The notes beneath the pieces are model-generated. The model searched no databases, was not told the DNA's origin, and was given only the letters and a program-made list of their open reading frames with translations. Of a stretch of 64,000 bases of DNA, positions 27,645 to 32,587 are shown one piece after another. The number at the start of each line of letters is the position of its first letter. Position 1 is the stretch's first letter. Position numbers and translations under genes: made by a program. This DNA comes from Sphingomonas cremea (GTDB lineage: Bacteria > Pseudomonadota > Alphaproteobacteria > Sphingomonadales > Sphingomonadaceae): the NCBI RefSeq assembly GCF_021502585.1, contig NZ_JAKFGM010000001.1, positions 186,001 to 250,000 on the forward strand, given 5' to 3'.

Positions 27645-27652
27645 AAGAGGCG
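27645..27652. repeat. Target-site duplication AAGAGGCG, left copy
   Basis: This 8-bp sequence immediately precedes the left inverted repeat of element A. The same octamer recurs at 30029-30036 and 32580-32587. Confidence 0.9.
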
Positions 27653-27670
27653 GGCATTTATATACTTGAC
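27653..27670 (+). repeat. Left terminal inverted repeat of element A
   Basis: GGCATTTATATACTTGAC. It overlaps a TTGACA hexamer (27666-27671) that could act as a -35 box. Confidence 0.88.
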
Positions 27671-27713
27671 AAAACATCGTCTCGCTGGCACTAAGTCAGC
27701 AAGAGGAACGGCA

Positions 27714-28622
27714 ATGACATTCGATCTCACCAATCCGGTTTTCAGCGACGCCGAAAAGGCCCGCGAATATCTCGAAAGCCTTCATTGGCCGGATGGGGCC
27801 GTTTGCCCTCACTGTAATCTGATGAACAACACCAAGGTTGGTGGCAAAACCGCTCGCCCTGGCCTCTATATGTGCAACGCTTGCCGCAAGCAGTTCACCG
27901 TCACGGTCGGGACCATCTTTGAGGATAGCAAAATCCCGCTCAACAAGTGGCTGCTGGCCTTCCGCCTTATCAACGGCGGTAAGAAGGGCATCAGCGCCAA
28001 CGAGATTAAGCGGCACCTCGGTATCAGCTACAAATCGGCGTGGTTCATGATGCACCGCATTCGTGAAGCGATGCAGGATGACGGCTCTCCGCTTGGCGGT
28101 CCCGGTAAGGTAGTTGAGTCCGATGAAGCCATTGTTGGCGGCTTCAAGCGCAAGCGCCTGTCCGGCAAGATTGCCCCCAAAAAGAAGATCGTCACGCTAG
28201 TCGAGCGCGGCGGCTCTGCCCGCTCATTCCACATCACCAACATCACTCATAAGAACGTGCGTCACGCTCTAGTGACCAGCGCGCACCGCTCGTCTGTCCT
28301 AATGACGGACGACGCCCGCTTTTATAACAACATCGGGCGCGAGTTTGCCGAGCATCACACGACGCTTCACAGCAATCGCGAGTTCGCCAAAGCTGGCGGC
28401 ATTCACAGCAACACCGCAGAGAACTTCTTCTCAATCTTCAAGCGCGGTTTGGTTGGCACTTACCATCACATGAGCGCCGCCCATTTGCACCGCTATCTGG
28501 TCGAGTTCGACTTTCGCTATAACACCCGCAAGGTTTCAGATGCGGAGCGCACCGAAGAGGCATTGAAAGGTGCGCGCGGGAAACGCCTCACCTATCGTCA
28601 ACCTAGCAGCCTCGCAGCCTAA
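27714..28622 (+). CDS. IS1595-family transposase A
   Basis: The 302-residue frame-0 product has an N-terminal zinc ribbon (C31, C34, C54, C57 in CPHC..CNAC), a helical DNA-binding region (HLGISYKSAWFMMHRIREAM) and the ISXO2-like catalytic core: D137 in ESDEA, DDARFYN (D199/D200) and HSNTAENFFS, giving the DD(N/E) set. The ATG at 27714 follows AAGAGGAAC; an upstream frame extension to 27597 crosses the element's end and is rejected. All catalytic residues are intact, so the copy is probably functional. It stops at TAA 28620-28622, but a conserved tail follows in the +1 frame (see next entry). Confidence 0.93.
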   Translation: MTFDLTNPVFSDAEKAREYLESLHWPDGAVCPHCNLMNNTKVGGKTARPGLYMCNACRKQFTVTVGTIFEDSKIPLNKWLLAFRLINGGKKGISANEIKRHLGISYKSAWFMMHRIREAMQDDGSPLGGPGKVVESDEAIVGGFKRKRLSGKIAPKKKIVTLVERGGSARSFHITNITHKNVRHALVTSAHRSSVLMTDDARFYNNIGREFAEHHTTLHSNREFAKAGGIHSNTAENFFSIFKRGLVGTYHHMSAAHLHRYLVEFDFRYNTRKVSDAERTEEALKGARGKRLTYRQPSSLAA

Positions 28623-28680
28623 ATACTCCCTAGCGCCGCCCTTCATTGGCGAGCGCCGAAAGCGCTGGACACGTTCCTAA
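28620..28680 (+). other. Conserved +1-frame transposase tail (element A)
   Basis: Skipping the T of the TAA at 28620 gives KYSLAPPFIGERRKRWTRS and then TAA at 28678-28680. The equivalent position in element B gives a tail of identical length with 15 of 19 residues the same. Ten codons differ synonymously and only four non-synonymously. This pattern supports translation of the tail, either by +1 frameshifting at GCC-TAA or by reinitiation. Confidence 0.6.
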
Positions 28681-28924
28681 CTTGTTCACGGTGAACGAGC
28701 AGGGAACAAGACTCGACTTTTTGGCCGTTTTGTGGTAATATAAAAATAGGGCGTCTCCCGACTCGTAATCGGGGACGCCCTGTGTTGATCAGCAGTGTTT
28801 CGGAACGGTCCGCTGATCGGTTTGTGAGGCTTGAAGCAAGCCCCGCGTGACAACGTGGTTATGCTTCATTCCAAGCAAATTTGCAAGGGCCGTTCTCCTT
28901 TTGTTTTGAAGGAGATACGGTAAA
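28681..28924. other. Non-coding spacer with strong hairpin
   Basis: This 244-bp stretch between the transposase tail and the HTH-like gene has no credible ORF. At 28748-28781 AGGGCGTCTCCC pairs with GGGGACGCCCT around a 10-11 base loop. On the minus strand the hairpin is followed by ATTTTTATATT, making a good Rho-independent terminator for leftward transcripts, perhaps shielding the transposase from antisense read-through. GGCTTGAAGCAAGCC further right is a second small hairpin. AAGGAGA at the right end is the ribosome site of the next gene. Confidence 0.65.
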
Positions 28925-29113
28925 ATGAAGCGTAAAAACTCAAATCATGTGACCGCCGAGATGGCCGCCAAGATCAAATATCTGGTCGGCGTGATCGGCC
29001 TGTTCCAGCATCAAGCGGCTGCCATTCTCGGCATCAATCAAGGCCGCGTTTCCGAGGTCATGAGCGGTAAGCGCCACGGCGGGATTCCGCCGCAGCTTTC
29101 GTTCGACTTCTAG
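28925..29113 (+). CDS. Small HTH-like passenger protein
   Basis: The 62-residue product has TAEMAAKIKYLVGVIGLFQHQAAAILGINQGRVSEVMSGKRH. This is a helix-turn-helix of the type seen in small alphaproteobacterial proteins, where AAAILGINQGRVSEV is the recognition region, ending PPQLSFDF. AAGGAGA lies upstream of the ATG and a Rho-independent terminator lies immediately downstream, so it is an independent unit or the end of one. It is carried inside element A. A role in controlling the element or host genes is possible but unproven. Confidence 0.75.
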   Translation: MKRKNSNHVTAEMAAKIKYLVGVIGLFQHQAAAILGINQGRVSEVMSGKRHGGIPPQLSFDF

Positions 29114-29119
29114 GAGCGG

Positions 29120-29149
29120 GAGGGGGCGGCTTTCGGGCCGCCCTCTTTT
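29120..29149 (+). terminator. Rho-independent terminator after the HTH-like gene
   Basis: GAGGGGGCGGC pairs with GCCGCCCTC around a short TTTCGG loop, followed by TTTT. It begins seven bases after the stop codon. Confidence 0.85.
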
Positions 29150-29237
29150 GACCGCCTGTTTATCTCTTCATTGCTGATCGGCGGCGTTGCCAAGGCGCGG
29201 CGGATTAGGTCATCAAACTCCGGTCCGGGAGATTGTA

Positions 29238-29882
29238 ATGAGTCAGCGTCACAAGTCGAAACGTGGGCCGAAGGGGACGGGGAAGCCAGATCCCTCGAAG
29301 GACCGCGCCGTCCACGATGCGGCGAGGGGGAAGAAGCAAATGACATTCGAAGACCTCGCCAGAATGGTGCCGTCCGCAGAGATACTAGACCAATATTTCC
29401 AACACATCGATCACGAAAGCGACAGGGGCGCTGCCGTGATGGTCGCGGCTCTCGTTGAGAGGGCCTTAGAAAACCATCTGAGATCCAAACTTCATGATCC
29501 CGGTGATGGCACACAGGATAAATGGTTCTGCGGCATCAACGCGCCCTTCCGAACCTTCTCAGCAAAGATCAGCCTGGGCCGCGCACTGGAAATCCTTGAT
29601 GCAGACGTCGAGGCGATGCTGGTGCGCATCAAAAACATCCGCAATCTATTTGCACACGGGATGATCCCGCTCGACTTTACCAACCCGACTATTGCCGCCG
29701 AATGCTCTCACTTGGTCCCTAAACCCGTAGTCGGCCTCGGCATACCTATGCGGATGGCATTCGCCACATCCTGCATCACTATCGCGCGCCTCCTAGGGAT
29801 GACGGAACTCTTCCGCTCAAACCTCGGCGATACGGCTGGGAACGGCCAAGGCCCTCTCCAAAAGGCCCCTACTCCAAGCTAG
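29238..29882 (+). CDS. MltR-like passenger protein
   Basis: The 214-residue protein (start 29238, GGGAG eight bases upstream) has a basic N-terminus (MSQRHKSKRGPKGTGKPD) and a helical domain: DHESDRGAAVMVAALVERALENHLRSKL, INAPFRTFSAKISLGRALEILDADVEAMLVRIKNIRNLFAHG. DRGxxxxxAxxxExxL, FSAKIxxxxALG and IRNxFAHx are hallmarks of the mannitol-repressor (MltR)/DUF4145-like fold. Such proteins occur as orphans next to mobile elements and defence genes; no mannitol genes are nearby. Its role as cargo of element A is unknown. Confidence 0.75.
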   Translation: MSQRHKSKRGPKGTGKPDPSKDRAVHDAARGKKQMTFEDLARMVPSAEILDQYFQHIDHESDRGAAVMVAALVERALENHLRSKLHDPGDGTQDKWFCGINAPFRTFSAKISLGRALEILDADVEAMLVRIKNIRNLFAHGMIPLDFTNPTIAAECSHLVPKPVVGLGIPMRMAFATSCITIARLLGMTELFRSNLGDTAGNGQGPLQKAPTPS

Positions 29883-30010
29883 GGAATCTGGGCTTTTGCG
29901 ATCGAGCAGCGCCAATGAGCGCGCCGCTGACTCAAGCATGGATGGTGTAATTGCCTCATTGGTTAGTCGCCGGCCTGTCTCGGTTTTCATAACGAATCAG
30001 CCCTTGTTTT

Positions 30011-30028
30011 GTAAAGTATATAAGTGCC
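30011..30028 (-). repeat. Right terminal inverted repeat of element A
   Basis: Read on the minus strand: GGCACTTATATACTTTAC. Confidence 0.88.
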
Positions 30029-30036
30029 AAGAGGCG
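30029..30036. repeat. Target-site duplication AAGAGGCG, middle copy shared by elements A and B
   Basis: The octamer is exactly abutted by the right end of A and the left end of B, with no extra bases on either side. Confidence 0.9.
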
Positions 30037-30054
30037 GGCAATTATATACTTTAC
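30037..30054 (+). repeat. Left terminal inverted repeat of element B
   Basis: GGCAATTATATACTTTAC. Confidence 0.88.
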
Positions 30055-30100
30055 TTAGCAGTCCGTTTGGGGCATAAACTGCTTCACAAGGAGCAGTCCC

Positions 30101-31015
30101 GTGAACGTCAACATCACCGACCCCATTTTCCACAATGAAGCGAAAGCGTTAGCGCATATCGAAGCGCAGCGTTGGCCGGACGGCGAACCGATTTGCCCGC
30201 ATTGTGGCTCTACGCACATCACCAAAATGGGCGGTAAAACCCAAGCCGGAATGTTCCTTTGCAATGATTGCCGCGACAAGTTCACGGTGCGAACCGGAAC
30301 GGTCATGGAGCGCAGCCATATCCCGCTTCACAAGTGGTTACTGGCAACGCACCTTATGGCCGCTTCAAAGAAGGGCATGAGCGCGCTTCAGATGAGCCGT
30401 ATGCTTGGCATCACCTACAAGAGCGCTTGGTTTCTCTGCCATCGTATCCGCGAGGCAATGGACAAAGCCAACGATACCGGCCCGCTTGGCGGCCCCGGTA
30501 AGGTGATCGAGAGCGACGAAGCCTTTGTCGGCGGCTTCAAGAAGAAGCGCCTGTCAGGCAACGTTGCGCCGAAGAAGAAGATCGTCACGCTGGTCGAGCG
30601 TGGCGGTCCTGCCCGTTCGTTCCACATCACCAATATCGACCACACGACCATCCGCGCCGCGCTGGTCACCAATTGCCACCGTTCGTCGGTCCTGATGACC
30701 GATGACGCTCGCTTTTATAACAATATCGGTCGCGAGTTTGCGGCTCATGGAACCACGCTTCACAGCAACCGCGAGTTCAGCCGTGGCGACGGCCACCACA
30801 GCAATACCGCAGAGAACTTCTTCAGCATCCTCAAGCGTGGCGTTATCGGCACCTACCATCACTGGAGCGCTGCCCATACGCACCGCTACCTTGCCGAGTT
30901 CGACCTTCGCTATTCAACCAAGGATAAGTCAGACACTGACCGCGCCAACGACATTCTCAAGGGCATGGAAGGCCGTCGCCTGACCTATCGGCGGATTGGT
31001 TTGCTCGCCGCCTGA
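30101..31015 (+). CDS. IS1595-family transposase B
   Basis: The 304-residue product starts at GTG 30101, seven bases after AAGGAG. It has a zinc ribbon (C32, C35, C54, C57), a DNA-binding region MLGITYKSAWFLCHRIREAM, and catalytic D139 in ESDEA, DDARFYN and HSNTAENFFS. It is homologous to transposase A along its whole length but diverged at many residues. The frame-0 stop is TGA 31013-31015 after LLAA; the conserved +1-frame tail follows. All key residues are present, so it may be active. Confidence 0.93.
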   Translation: MNVNITDPIFHNEAKALAHIEAQRWPDGEPICPHCGSTHITKMGGKTQAGMFLCNDCRDKFTVRTGTVMERSHIPLHKWLLATHLMAASKKGMSALQMSRMLGITYKSAWFLCHRIREAMDKANDTGPLGGPGKVIESDEAFVGGFKKKRLSGNVAPKKKIVTLVERGGPARSFHITNIDHTTIRAALVTNCHRSSVLMTDDARFYNNIGREFAAHGTTLHSNREFSRGDGHHSNTAENFFSILKRGVIGTYHHWSAAHTHRYLAEFDLRYSTKDKSDTDRANDILKGMEGRRLTYRRIGLLAA

Positions 31016-31073
31016 TTATTATGAGGCACCGCCTGAAATCGGTGAACGCCGTAAGCGCTGGACTCGAAGCTGA
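31013..31073 (+). other. Conserved +1-frame transposase tail (element B)
   Basis: Skipping the T at 31013 gives DYYEAPPEIGERRKRWTRS and TGA at 31071-31073. Length, position relative to the frame-0 stop (directly after LAA) and the APP-IGERRKRWTRS core match element A, with differences concentrated at third codon positions of this frame. Confidence 0.6.
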
Positions 31074-31119
31074 CTTAGGTTAGCTTCGCGCTGCCGAATC
31101 GCCATGCGGAGTATGCATT

Positions 31120-31386
31120 ATGGCGAAGCATCAGATTACGTGTGTGACGCTGGACGGGCCGGACTCCAATCGGACGATTGATGCCGTTGGCGGACCCCAA
31201 TTCGGAATCTGGCCAATTGCGAAAGCAATCGCCTGGACTAAGGCAGGCCATGGGTCTTGGACCAATGTGAATGGCAATCCTGCGCCGGTGTTTCGTCGGG
31301 GCACTCCTCTGACTGGCGAGTATCTGACAACATCGCCAGACGGCTATCTGCCCAACAATCTGCTGAAGCTAACGCCTTGCCCGTAA
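31120..31386 (+). CDS. DUF3892-like passenger protein
   Basis: The 88-residue product, MAKHQITCVTLDGPDSNRTI then DAVGGPQFG..., has the short-protein pattern of DUF3892: a lysine-rich start, an IDAVGG motif, a central I..AI helix and the end SPDGYLPNNLLKLTPCP. GGAG precedes the ATG by eight bases. Its last 149 bases are overlapped on the other strand by the 98-residue gene ending at 31238. It lies just downstream of the transposase in element B. The function of the family is unknown. Confidence 0.65.
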   Translation: MAKHQITCVTLDGPDSNRTIDAVGGPQFGIWPIAKAIAWTKAGHGSWTNVNGNPAPVFRRGTPLTGEYLTTSPDGYLPNNLLKLTPCP

Positions 31387-31534
31387 GGAATGCCATCGGC
31401 GACGCCGAGATTGTGGGATCAAGCGCCCATGCAAGCGCGGATTGGGCTGCATAGATTTCAGGATATCGCGGGTTTCCGACGCCACAATCTAGCGCCCGAT
31501 TCAGACGCGCCAGCTCTCGTTCTATAAAGCCCAT
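31238..31534 (-). CDS. Small passenger protein of unknown function
   Basis: The 98-residue frame begins MGFIERELARLNRALDCGVG, then NPRYPEIYAAQSALAWALDPTISASPMAFL. The N-terminal half looks like a small alphaproteobacterial protein type with a YAAQ-ALSWAL-P core. GGAGG lies five bases before the ATG and a TATAAT box within an inverted-repeat-like sequence lies just upstream. The C-terminal half overlaps the DUF3892-like gene antisense and is less convincing. The function is unknown. Confidence 0.62.
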   Translation of the reverse strand: MGFIERELARLNRALDCGVGNPRYPEIYAAQSALAWALDPTISASPMAFLTGKALASADCWADSRLAMLSDTRQSEECPDETPAQDCHSHWSKTHGLP

Positions 31535-31542
31535 ACGGCCTC

Positions 31543-31560
31543 CAGTAATTATATACTTTT
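31543..31560 (-). promoter_or_regulatory. Internal copy of the terminal-repeat motif acting as probable promoter
   Basis: AAAAGTATATAATTACTG on the minus strand matches the TIR core AAGTATATAATT and contains a consensus TATAAT box about 15 bases before the 31534 start codon. It lies between two divergent passenger frames (31534 minus, 31578 plus) and is not flanked by AAGAGGCG. Confidence 0.5.
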
Positions 31561-31577
31561 AAAGCAGGGAGAGTGAA

Positions 31578-31679
31578 ATGACCGACAGTTATGCAAACAT
31601 GATCGTCAACGAGCTTCGCAAGATTGCCTCGGAGCTGCATCAACTCCGCCTCGCGGCAGAGCGCGCAGCAAGGAAATAG
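31578..31679 (+). CDS. 33-residue passenger ORF
   Basis: ATG 31578 follows GGGAGAG at good spacing. The peptide (MTDSYANMIVNELRKIASEL then HQLRLAAERAARK) is one amphipathic basic helix. It is too short for family recognition. Support is the ribosome site, its position in a divergent promoter region and the absence of any other frame in the segment. Confidence 0.45.
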   Translation: MTDSYANMIVNELRKIASELHQLRLAAERAARK

Positions 31680-31685
31680 GCCCTG

Positions 31686-31832
31686 CTACTTTGCCTTGGG
31701 AGCGCCGCGCTTAGGTTCGGCGCTCTTCTTGTGCGGCTTGTGCGGGGTCGCCAGCATCACTTTGAGCGTGGCCTCGGCGCGCGCCCTAGTCTCCTCTTCG
31801 GAGTAGGTTTCACTCTTTTCGGAGTCTGACAT
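31686..31832 (-). CDS. Small conserved-type passenger protein (48 residues)
   Basis: From ATG 31832 the minus strand encodes MSDSEKSETYSEEETRARAE, then ATLKVMLATPHKPHKKSAEPKRGAPKAK and TAG. The layout of an acidic YSEEET-RA start, a TLKxMLxTPxKPHK core and a basic tail recalls a widespread alphaproteobacterial small protein group of unknown function. GGAGG lies about seven bases upstream of the ATG. The start codon overlaps that of the next gene on the plus strand (CATG at 31830-31833), so each gene's ribosome site lies inside the other's coding sequence. Confidence 0.65.
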   Translation of the reverse strand: MSDSEKSETYSEEETRARAEATLKVMLATPHKPHKKSAEPKRGAPKAK

Positions 31833-32487
31833 GAAAGCCTCCACGACAGGCGAGCTTTACGCTGCATTTATGCAAGAGATCAAACAGCGCATCGGTAAGG
31901 TAGAGCGGATCATCGTAGAGGTGGCGCATAGGCCTGAGGGCGAGGAGGCCAGCTATCTAGTAGAGTTGGCGCACCTACAAATTAGGTTCATCTGCGAGCT
32001 GACCGCGCTTGCATCCCTGGCCGCCCATAACTCTTACGGGATCAGGAAGGATCTGCTCAAGAAGTGGCATGCCGACATAATCTTCGATGAGTTGGAACGA
32101 ATTAATCCGCACTCGTTTCCGGTTCCCGTTCGAGCCACGGTTGGACCCGATGGGGTCTATCAATTCCAGCCCGCGAAAGAACGCAGGCTGAGCCGAGCAC
32201 ATCTAAAGCAAATATACGGAAATTGCGGACGCCTCCTGCATCGGGGCGTCCTTAAACATACATTGCAAGGCCGCGAGCGAACATACGACCTGAATCAAGT
32301 GGCCGCGTGGCTGAAGCAGCTATACGGGCTGCTCGCGGAGCACATGATCTTGCTGCCCAAAGAGCAGCAAGTCCTTATGGTCAATCTTATTGATGGCGAG
32401 GGCGGGCGGGTTCAGGTTGCGAAGGCTGTTTCAGACGGACCGTTCGCAGTATCTCCAGACTTCCGTCTAGGCCACAAAGACCCTTAA
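31831..32487 (+). CDS. Passenger protein of unknown function (218 residues)
   Basis: ATG 31831 follows CGGAG with seven-base spacing. The product is mostly helical: ELYAAFMQEIKQRIGKVERIIVEVAHRPEGEEASYLVELAHLQIRFICELTALASLAAH, then a basic middle (RLSRAHLKQIYGNCGRLLHRGVL) and a C-terminal WLKQLYGLLAEHMILLPKEQQVLMVNL. There is no signal peptide or membrane span and no catalytic motif. It is cargo of element B. Its codon use is less GC-biased than neighbouring core genes, in keeping with foreign origin. Confidence 0.65.
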   Translation: MKASTTGELYAAFMQEIKQRIGKVERIIVEVAHRPEGEEASYLVELAHLQIRFICELTALASLAAHNSYGIRKDLLKKWHADIIFDELERINPHSFPVPVRATVGPDGVYQFQPAKERRLSRAHLKQIYGNCGRLLHRGVLKHTLQGRERTYDLNQVAAWLKQLYGLLAEHMILLPKEQQVLMVNLIDGEGGRVQVAKAVSDGPFAVSPDFRLGHKDP

Positions 32488-32561
32488 CGCGGACCACCGC
32501 GCCGTCATAAAGTGATGCGCCGGCCTGTCCTGTTTGGTTATAGCGACTCATTGGCTGCTCA

Positions 32562-32579
32562 CTCAAGTATATAATTGCC
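32562..32579 (-). repeat. Right terminal inverted repeat of element B
   Basis: Read on the minus strand: GGCAATTATATACTTGAG. On the plus strand it offers TATAAT (32570-32575) pointing toward the DUF6456 gene, without an obvious -35 box. Confidence 0.88.
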
Positions 32580-32587
32580 AAGAGGCG
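32580..32587. repeat. Target-site duplication AAGAGGCG, right copy
   Basis: Third copy of the octamer, directly after the right end of element B. Confidence 0.9.

Follow-up and report, generated by a model that had tools for sequence, protein, structure and literature searches.

Transposases A and B, two IS1595-family proteins encoded in a 64,000-nucleotide stretch of the Sphingomonas cremea genome (contig NZ_JAKFGM010000001.1, positions 186,001 to 250,000; the window), are very probably subject to a +1 programmed ribosomal frameshift that gives a transposase with a basic C-terminal tail. This is the best reading because the tail in the +1 frame is under selection and the same arrangement is found in 247 of 288 anchored relatives. 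Computation revealed an extra base ahead of a leucine codon, purifying selection on the tail that follows, and a constraint on the two codons, codon 1 and codon 2, that precede the extra base. The shift would be ribosomal, with either codon 2 or codon 1 in the P site, and its products may differ in activity.

Two IS1595-type elements in tandem

Elements A and B are both complete, of the IS1595 type, and lie head to tail between positions 27645 and 32587 of the window (Table 1). Copies of the duplication that separates them are also found to the left of A (27645-27652) and to the right of B (32580-32587); the 8 bp sequence is thus present three times and shared, as if one element had inserted exactly at the target duplication of the other. 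An 8 bp target duplication and a single transposase gene per element have been described for the IS1595 family (PMC8101967, in the part covered here), and both A and B have the inverted repeats, of 24 and 25 nt, and the 8 bp duplication of the family. Each element has one frame-0 transposase ORF, plus the selected +1-frame tail, plus passenger ORFs. The passenger products are a 62-aa helix-turn-helix-like protein (weak HTH_37), a DUF4145-like protein (below the cut-off), a DUF3892 protein and one without a family. A Mesorhizobium plasmid (L040) likewise has a DUF3892 gene behind its related transposase.

Table 1. Features of elements A and B, in positions of the window
Feature	Position	Strand	Description
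Element A	27653..30028	+	ends are 24-nt inverted repeats, 27653-27676 / 30005-30028, 92% complementary
Transposase A, IS1595 family, frame-0 ORF	27714..28622	+	302 aa, end SLAA-TAA
Shift window of A	28593..28605	+	TAT CGT CAA [C] CTA, placed by homology mapping
+1-frame tail of A	28603..28680	+	LAASQPKYSLAPPFIGERRKRWTRS then TAA
Target-site duplication between A and B	30029..30036	+	AAGAGGCG, 8 bp
Element B	30037..32579	+	ends are 25-nt inverted repeats, 30037-30061 / 32555-32579, 88% complementary
Transposase B, IS1595 family, frame-0 ORF	30101..31015	+	304 aa, GTG start, end LLAA-TGA
Shift window of B	30986..30998	+	TAT CGG CGG [A] TTG, placed by homology mapping
+1-frame tail of B	30996..31073	+	LVCSPPDYYEAPPEIGERRKRWTRS then TGA
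Passenger genes	28925-29113, 29238-29882, 31120-31386, 31831-32487		inside elements A/B

The two transposases are 66% identical. Transposase A matches PF12762 (6.8e-28, 98 bits, cut-off 27) and PF12760 (1.2e-10, 41.6 bits, cut-off 25.4), as does transposase B (6.5e-24, 85.1 bits and 42 bits, against the same cut-offs), and NF033547 is matched by both (A 1.7e-51, 175.2 bits; B 169.6 bits; cut-off 75). Both have the ISXO2-like DDE domain and the N-terminal zinc ribbon of the IS1595 family. In the predicted structure of the transframe product of B, the core is folded up to the shift window, thus both products should carry the whole catalytic core. Residues 296-322 have a pLDDT below 50, in a prediction for which the alignment held the tail residues of one sequence only.

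Placement of the probable shift among relatives

The S. cremea genome itself contains two matches at E <= 0.001, which are A and B. Matches at E <= 1e-60 were present in 61 of 396 genomes drawn from the same order and in 56 of 385 from the class, and a draw from the phylum gave 33 of 398 genomes matching at E <= 1e-50, with 31 from the same class and 2 from the rest of the phylum; the three draws overlap. Further loci were the best 80 of 581 from named genomes, the best 80 of 584 from viral contigs, and two added from plasmids. With 21 duplicates dropped, the 324 loci became 303 distinct loci, and 288 of these were anchored at KRLTY, near the end of the core. The 15 that were not anchored are four cut at contig ends (L269, L293, L335, L338) and eleven others: two cut short (L148, L252), two of another subgroup (L259, L260), and seven in which the motif is altered and x-x-L is in frame (L213, L217, L224, L226, L234, L235, L258). 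Since the loci were found through similarity to tail-bearing queries, they do not represent a random sample of the IS1595 family. KRLTY was absent by eye from eight more distant IS1595 plasmid regions (six annotated proteins and the frames of the other two), which were left out of the counts. Annotation was inspected for two plasmid records; for L041 it gives the frame-0 reading only, and for L040, where the match is in two pieces and the gene table is incomplete, it has no gene there. Judged by these two records, gene annotation may miss the tail.

After KRLTY, the order in 247 of the 288 anchored rows is codon 1, codon 2, one base, and a leucine codon in the +1 frame. Elsewhere the leucine is at frame-0 codon 3 (22 rows), in the -1 frame (10), in no frame (8) or in both (1). 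For an earlier set of 217 rows, leucine was present at the +1 offset in 185 and at every other offset from the end of the tyrosine to +39 in no more than 52. Seventeen of the 22 in-frame rows are distant relatives (35-42% identity) that end in KRLMY-R-D-L-I-A or similar. On a core-only tree of 262 tips, in which the trait was not used, the in-frame and +1 states require 2 changes, where none of 200 shuffles needed fewer than 15. This tree has 19 in-frame rows, with L225, which has both readings, counted among them, and 18 of the 19 form one clade (support 0.998). The in-frame relatives and the core tree together indicate that what sets the +1 clade apart is a single additional base separating codon 2 from the leucine, and homology to the in-frame Y-x-x-L places the shift between the tyrosine and the leucine.

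An earlier note, made from the letters of this DNA alone, had taken the shift to occur at the stop codon of the frame-0 ORF. What it read from the sequence is accurate. Frame 0 of A ends in GCC TAA (28617-28622) and the +1 frame from 28621 reads KYSLAPPFIGERRKRWTRS, with a stop at 28678-28680; frame 0 of B ends in GCC TGA (31010-31015) and the +1 frame from 31014 reads DYYEAPPEIGERRKRWTRS, with a stop at 31071-31073. Between these tails 10 codons differ synonymously, 4 differ non-synonymously and 5 are identical, just as it had counted. By homology, the +1 reading starts 18 bases further upstream, with the leucine codon from 28603 in A and from 30996 in B, and if the shift follows codon 2 the skipped bases would be 28602 and 30995.

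A shift at the frame-0 stop codon itself (GCC_TAA / GCC_TGA), as in prfB or antizyme, is very improbable. It is the case that GCC precedes the stop in 25 of 34 close relatives, and that in 4 of the 247 rows (L156, L178, L315, L318) the stop is at codon 2, within the shift window. In the other 243, however, it is 4-18 codons past the tyrosine. The distance across the 247 rows is therefore 1-18 codons, while the +1 leucine and its in-frame counterpart are fixed in place, so the stop cannot serve as a marker of the shift. The type of stop differs too, being TAA in 164, TGA in 50 and TAG in 33. A stop in the A site at the point of shifting, the hallmark of the prfB and antizyme type, would thus apply to the four codon 2 cases only. 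Directly after codon 2, frame 0 has no synonymous excess, with 0 synonymous against 90 other single changes at codon 3 and 30 against 86 at the next codon, on a tree of 241 rows that excludes L077 and L323. On these comparisons of sequence, the shift is placed upstream of the frame-0 stop. Of the programmed frameshift that had been proposed, the +1-frame tail selected as protein is retained, and the alignment of many homologues bears out the arrangement; the codon-stop shift at GCC-TAA is not retained.

Some rows depart from the common arrangement. Among the other in-frame rows, L060, L068, L241 and L331 have TGA at codon 2 after a KRLTY-type motif, with the leucine codon in frame (Y-x-TGA-L), and perhaps have lost the tail or are of a readthrough type. 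In L071, which is within the +1 clade, the leucine is in frame and the protein ends soon after, as if the extra base and the tail were lost together. L077, called as +1, falls beside the in-frame clade on the tree. The rows with leucine in the -1 frame include L149, L205, L302, L307 and L340; some have, for example, CGG GAC TCA after the tyrosine, and the -1 frame of L302 and L307 encodes short tails rich in lysine. These rows are possibly a second, -1 solution.

Selection on the tail

Tail pN/pS comes to 0.54 when read in +1 and to 1.04 and 1.03 when read in the two other frames; in +1, pS exceeds pN in 40 of the 46 pairs. These pairs are disjoint, were picked by nucleotide identity only, and have tails of 12-60 codons (221 of 247 rows). 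The purifying selection that had been suggested from A and B is therefore borne out among the relatives, and the out-of-frame extension is conserved as protein.

On the 241-row tree, changes that involve a stop in the +1 frame number 77 at offset -8 and 0 over the nine codons at -5 through +19; in frame 0, stops are gained from +12 on. Frame-0 changes in the G-K-R-L-T-Y codons are mostly synonymous, a pattern that ends after the tyrosine, and part of this excess is present by construction as these codons are the anchor motif. The 0 non-synonymous changes at the leucine are also by construction, the class being defined by this residue; its 107 synonymous changes indicate that the residue is kept, not the bases. 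For the stretch from the leucine to the frame-0 stop, pN/pS is 0.93 in frame 0, 0.73 in +1 and 0.70 in +2 (74 pairs), and the frames are not separated.

The median open length after the leucine is 25 codons in the +1 frame and 6 in frame 0; the +1 stretch is shorter than 12 codons in 19 of the 247 rows. Net charge is positive in 224 of 240 tails, with a median of +7 and a median length of 25 residues. Lysine and arginine make up 32% of the tail and 16% of the core, and the other frames of the tail DNA have 20% and 12%. Tail types include GERRKRW, KQKARxxxRWRKR, KPKLTRxQFR, RSRWRTKPHR and QLSFxF. Going by its pattern of change, the +1 tail frame is probably translated.

It could be argued that reinitiation or coupling past the transposase stop yields the tail as a small protein in its own right, since the tail directly overlaps the gene end and since some distant relatives, L044 and L045 among them, have an ATG-started downstream ORF over the stop, in another frame. 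Yet the relatives share no conserved start codon in the +1 frame, and this frame is often closed just upstream (offset -8). The +1 reading starts at the leucine, for which all six codons are used, in register with the in-frame Y-x-x-L, and a separate protein is extremely unlikely.

In L044, L045, L047-L050, L052, L057, L058 and L067, an ATG-started downstream ORF (e.g. MPKKK...AGELSPT) overlaps the +1 tail in another frame. One DNA seems to code twice at these loci, for RRWRTKPHR and AGELSP.

Addition or removal of a base by transcriptional slippage or RNA editing is documented, as slippage, for several IS elements (PMC5009743 and PMC6211511, in the parts covered here), and six consecutive G are present in the shift windows of L051 and L183. 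The shift windows of A and B, however, are free of homopolymer runs, as are those with the frequent CGG-CGG and CAA-CAA pairs. The frame change is in a single direction in 247 of the 288 anchored rows, and the decay of recently broken genes would not yield the pN/pS found for the tail. Slippage, editing or recent breakage is therefore a highly unlikely explanation of the arrangement.

The probable shift site and known recoding systems

A purine ends codon 1 in 219 and codon 2 in 230 of 243 rows (the four with a stop at codon 2 being left out), against 26590 of 73844 for all codons of the same genes (36%), with these counts inflated by glutamine, glutamate and lysine codons, which always end in a purine, and by relatedness. 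For the in-frame relatives it is 9 of 18 at codon 1 and 7 of 18 at codon 2. CGG encodes 126 of the 136 arginines at codon 2 and 440 of 6187 elsewhere; for glutamine, CAA accounts for 29 of 29 at codon 1, 30 of 45 at codon 2 and 340 of 1617 elsewhere. In a set of 184 rows, residues whose codons could end either way mostly follow the rule as well, purine-ended codons accounting for 98 of 100 arginines (codon 2), 19 of 19 threonines, 9 of 9 glycines and 8 of 8 prolines, and serine at codon 2 is off the rule, with 4 of 8. The site is conserved beyond coding need: taken from the sequences, the constraint on codons 1 and 2 is greater than the protein requires, as a recoding site would show.

Other ways to describe the site were considered. 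CGG is not rare in the host, at 17.6 per 1000 codons and 26% of arginine codons in 15 ORFs of the window, so the rare-codon reading was rejected and purine-ended is the better description. A missing cognate tRNA, as in Ty3, was also rejected, tRNA-Arg(CCG) being present in the genome (30 of 41 tRNA matches scanned). The same applies to a conserved hairpin CGGCGG/CCGCC, for which inspection by eye found CGGCGG unchanged when its partner changes (GCA GCC, GGA GCC).

Neither a known stimulator nor P-site re-pairing was found for the site. Folding of 124 of the 247 rows gave no strong RNA structure: z is -0.66 for the downstream stretch, -0.56 for the surroundings of the site and -0.56 farther on, and -0.37 and -0.20 in upstream controls. 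There was no specific, well-placed anti-Shine-Dalgarno pairing in the 124 rows, as the local peak on the shift window (mean -2.9 kcal/mol) is at the level seen from -33 to -21 (-2.6 to -3.4). Manual inspection of the codons gave no consistent rule for P-site re-pairing and no classical slippery pairing.

The programmed +1 frameshift that is preferred here would act in a large IS1595-family clade to which A and B belong, here mostly from Alphaproteobacteria, with the extra base between codon 2 and the leucine. A ribosome at Tyr-codon 1-codon 2-N-Leu could stay in frame 0 and reach the stop, giving a product with a complete catalytic core and a short, non-conserved end. Alternatively, it could move forward one base within the shift window and read leucine, then mostly T or V, then the basic tail. 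The shift would fall within the seven bases between the tyrosine and the leucine. With codon 2 in the P site the site would be NNR_N_YTN, resembling the GCG_AGU_U of Ty3; with codon 1 in the P site and codon 2 held in the A site it would resemble tandem AGG_AGG, and the four rows with a stop at codon 2 would resemble stop-codon shifts.

The version with codon 1 in the P site, in which codon 2 is slow in the A site (held as a tandem NNR or as a stop) and the junction residue comes from bases 2-3 of codon 2 plus N, is a real possibility, held at somewhat under even probability. L156, L178, L315 and L318, with a stop at codon 2, have no stop in the matched core and have the +1 leucine; in L315 and L318 the +1 stretch is short, at 9 and 8 codons. 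Among pairs, changes at codon 1 are synonymous in frame 0 only in 10 cases and in +1 only in 1, and at codon 2 in 2 and 3; codon 1 behaves as a frame-0 codon, and codon 2 leans to neither frame. On the tree, synonymous against other changes at codon 1 are 32 v 29 in frame 0 and 19 v 49 in +1, and at codon 2 they are 28 v 39 and 37 v 54. Shifting at tandem AGG_AGG or AGA_AGA has been described (PMC5009743, in part). Against this version, third-base changes at codon 2 keep the frame-0 residue in several subgroups (CCG/CCA, ACA/ACG, AGT/AGC, GGG/GGA), and CGG is not a rare codon in the host.

The first three systems are compared from the part of a 2016 review covered here (PMC5009743). The IS1 and IS3 families and others have, as the IS1595 clade would, a recoded transframe transposase and a shorter in-frame product. 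Their ribosomal cases, however, are -1 and join an upstream DNA-binding ORF to a catalytic ORF, whereas the shift in IS1595 would be +1, would come where the gene is about to end, and would contribute nothing but a tail. The prfB gene for release factor 2, with CUU_UGA_C and an internal Shine-Dalgarno, shares the +1 direction and conservation in many bacteria. In contrast to prfB, the IS1595 site has a stop in the shift window in 4 of 247 rows, no CUU at codons 1-2 and no usable Shine-Dalgarno, and its shift would add a tail rather than most of the protein. The yeast element Ty3 (GCG_AGU_U) is closer in some respects, being a mobile element with a +1 shift in which a purine-ended P-site codon without realistic re-pairing is followed by one skipped base (compare CGG_A_CUG). 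Shifting in Ty3 is linked to the lack of a cognate tRNA and to slow decoding in the A site, and it makes Gag-Pol, but here the host has tRNA-Arg(CCG) and the part added would be a C-terminal tail.

Another +1 system has a bacterial-type gene and a second, extended product, as IS1595 would, but the shift is at a proline codon that is followed by a pseudoknot or a stop, and it serves structural proteins and no transposase. The GeneTack clusters of frameshifted prokaryotic genes are conserved frame transitions found genome-wide and include +1 transposase clusters; its transposase clusters, which lie at A-rich sites, were ascribed to transcriptional realignment (PMC3711429, in part). The term IS1595 is absent from the main text of PMC3711429 in the portion covered, and the covered portions of PMC3281130, PMC12428005 and PMC8101967 do not connect the IS1595 family with recoding. 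No +1 tail or recoding for IS1595 was present among the titles and abstract openings of the matches listed, a scope outside which lie preprints, ISfinder and the 2009 family paper.

It is likely that this is a family-wide +1 shift in an insertion sequence at a previously undescribed kind of site, consisting of two purine-ended codons, a skipped base and a leucine, with no stop, Shine-Dalgarno or structure as stimulator. The shift would apparently have a single origin, be kept across Alphaproteobacteria, and fuse a basic tail to the transposase. The likeliest role of the tail would be to extend the transposase for DNA binding or regulation, with the shift acting to restrain transposition. Transposons often use recoding; +1 is the direction for which the 2016 review, in the part covered, states that no IS with ribosomal frameshifting had been identified (PMC5009743). 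Here, 247 distinct loci share one conserved +1 arrangement. Because the protein motif recurs in frame in more distant relatives, homology maps the shift site, which is open to direct testing. Since the site breaks the usual rules, it provides a natural test of bacterial +1 frame loss at sense codons.
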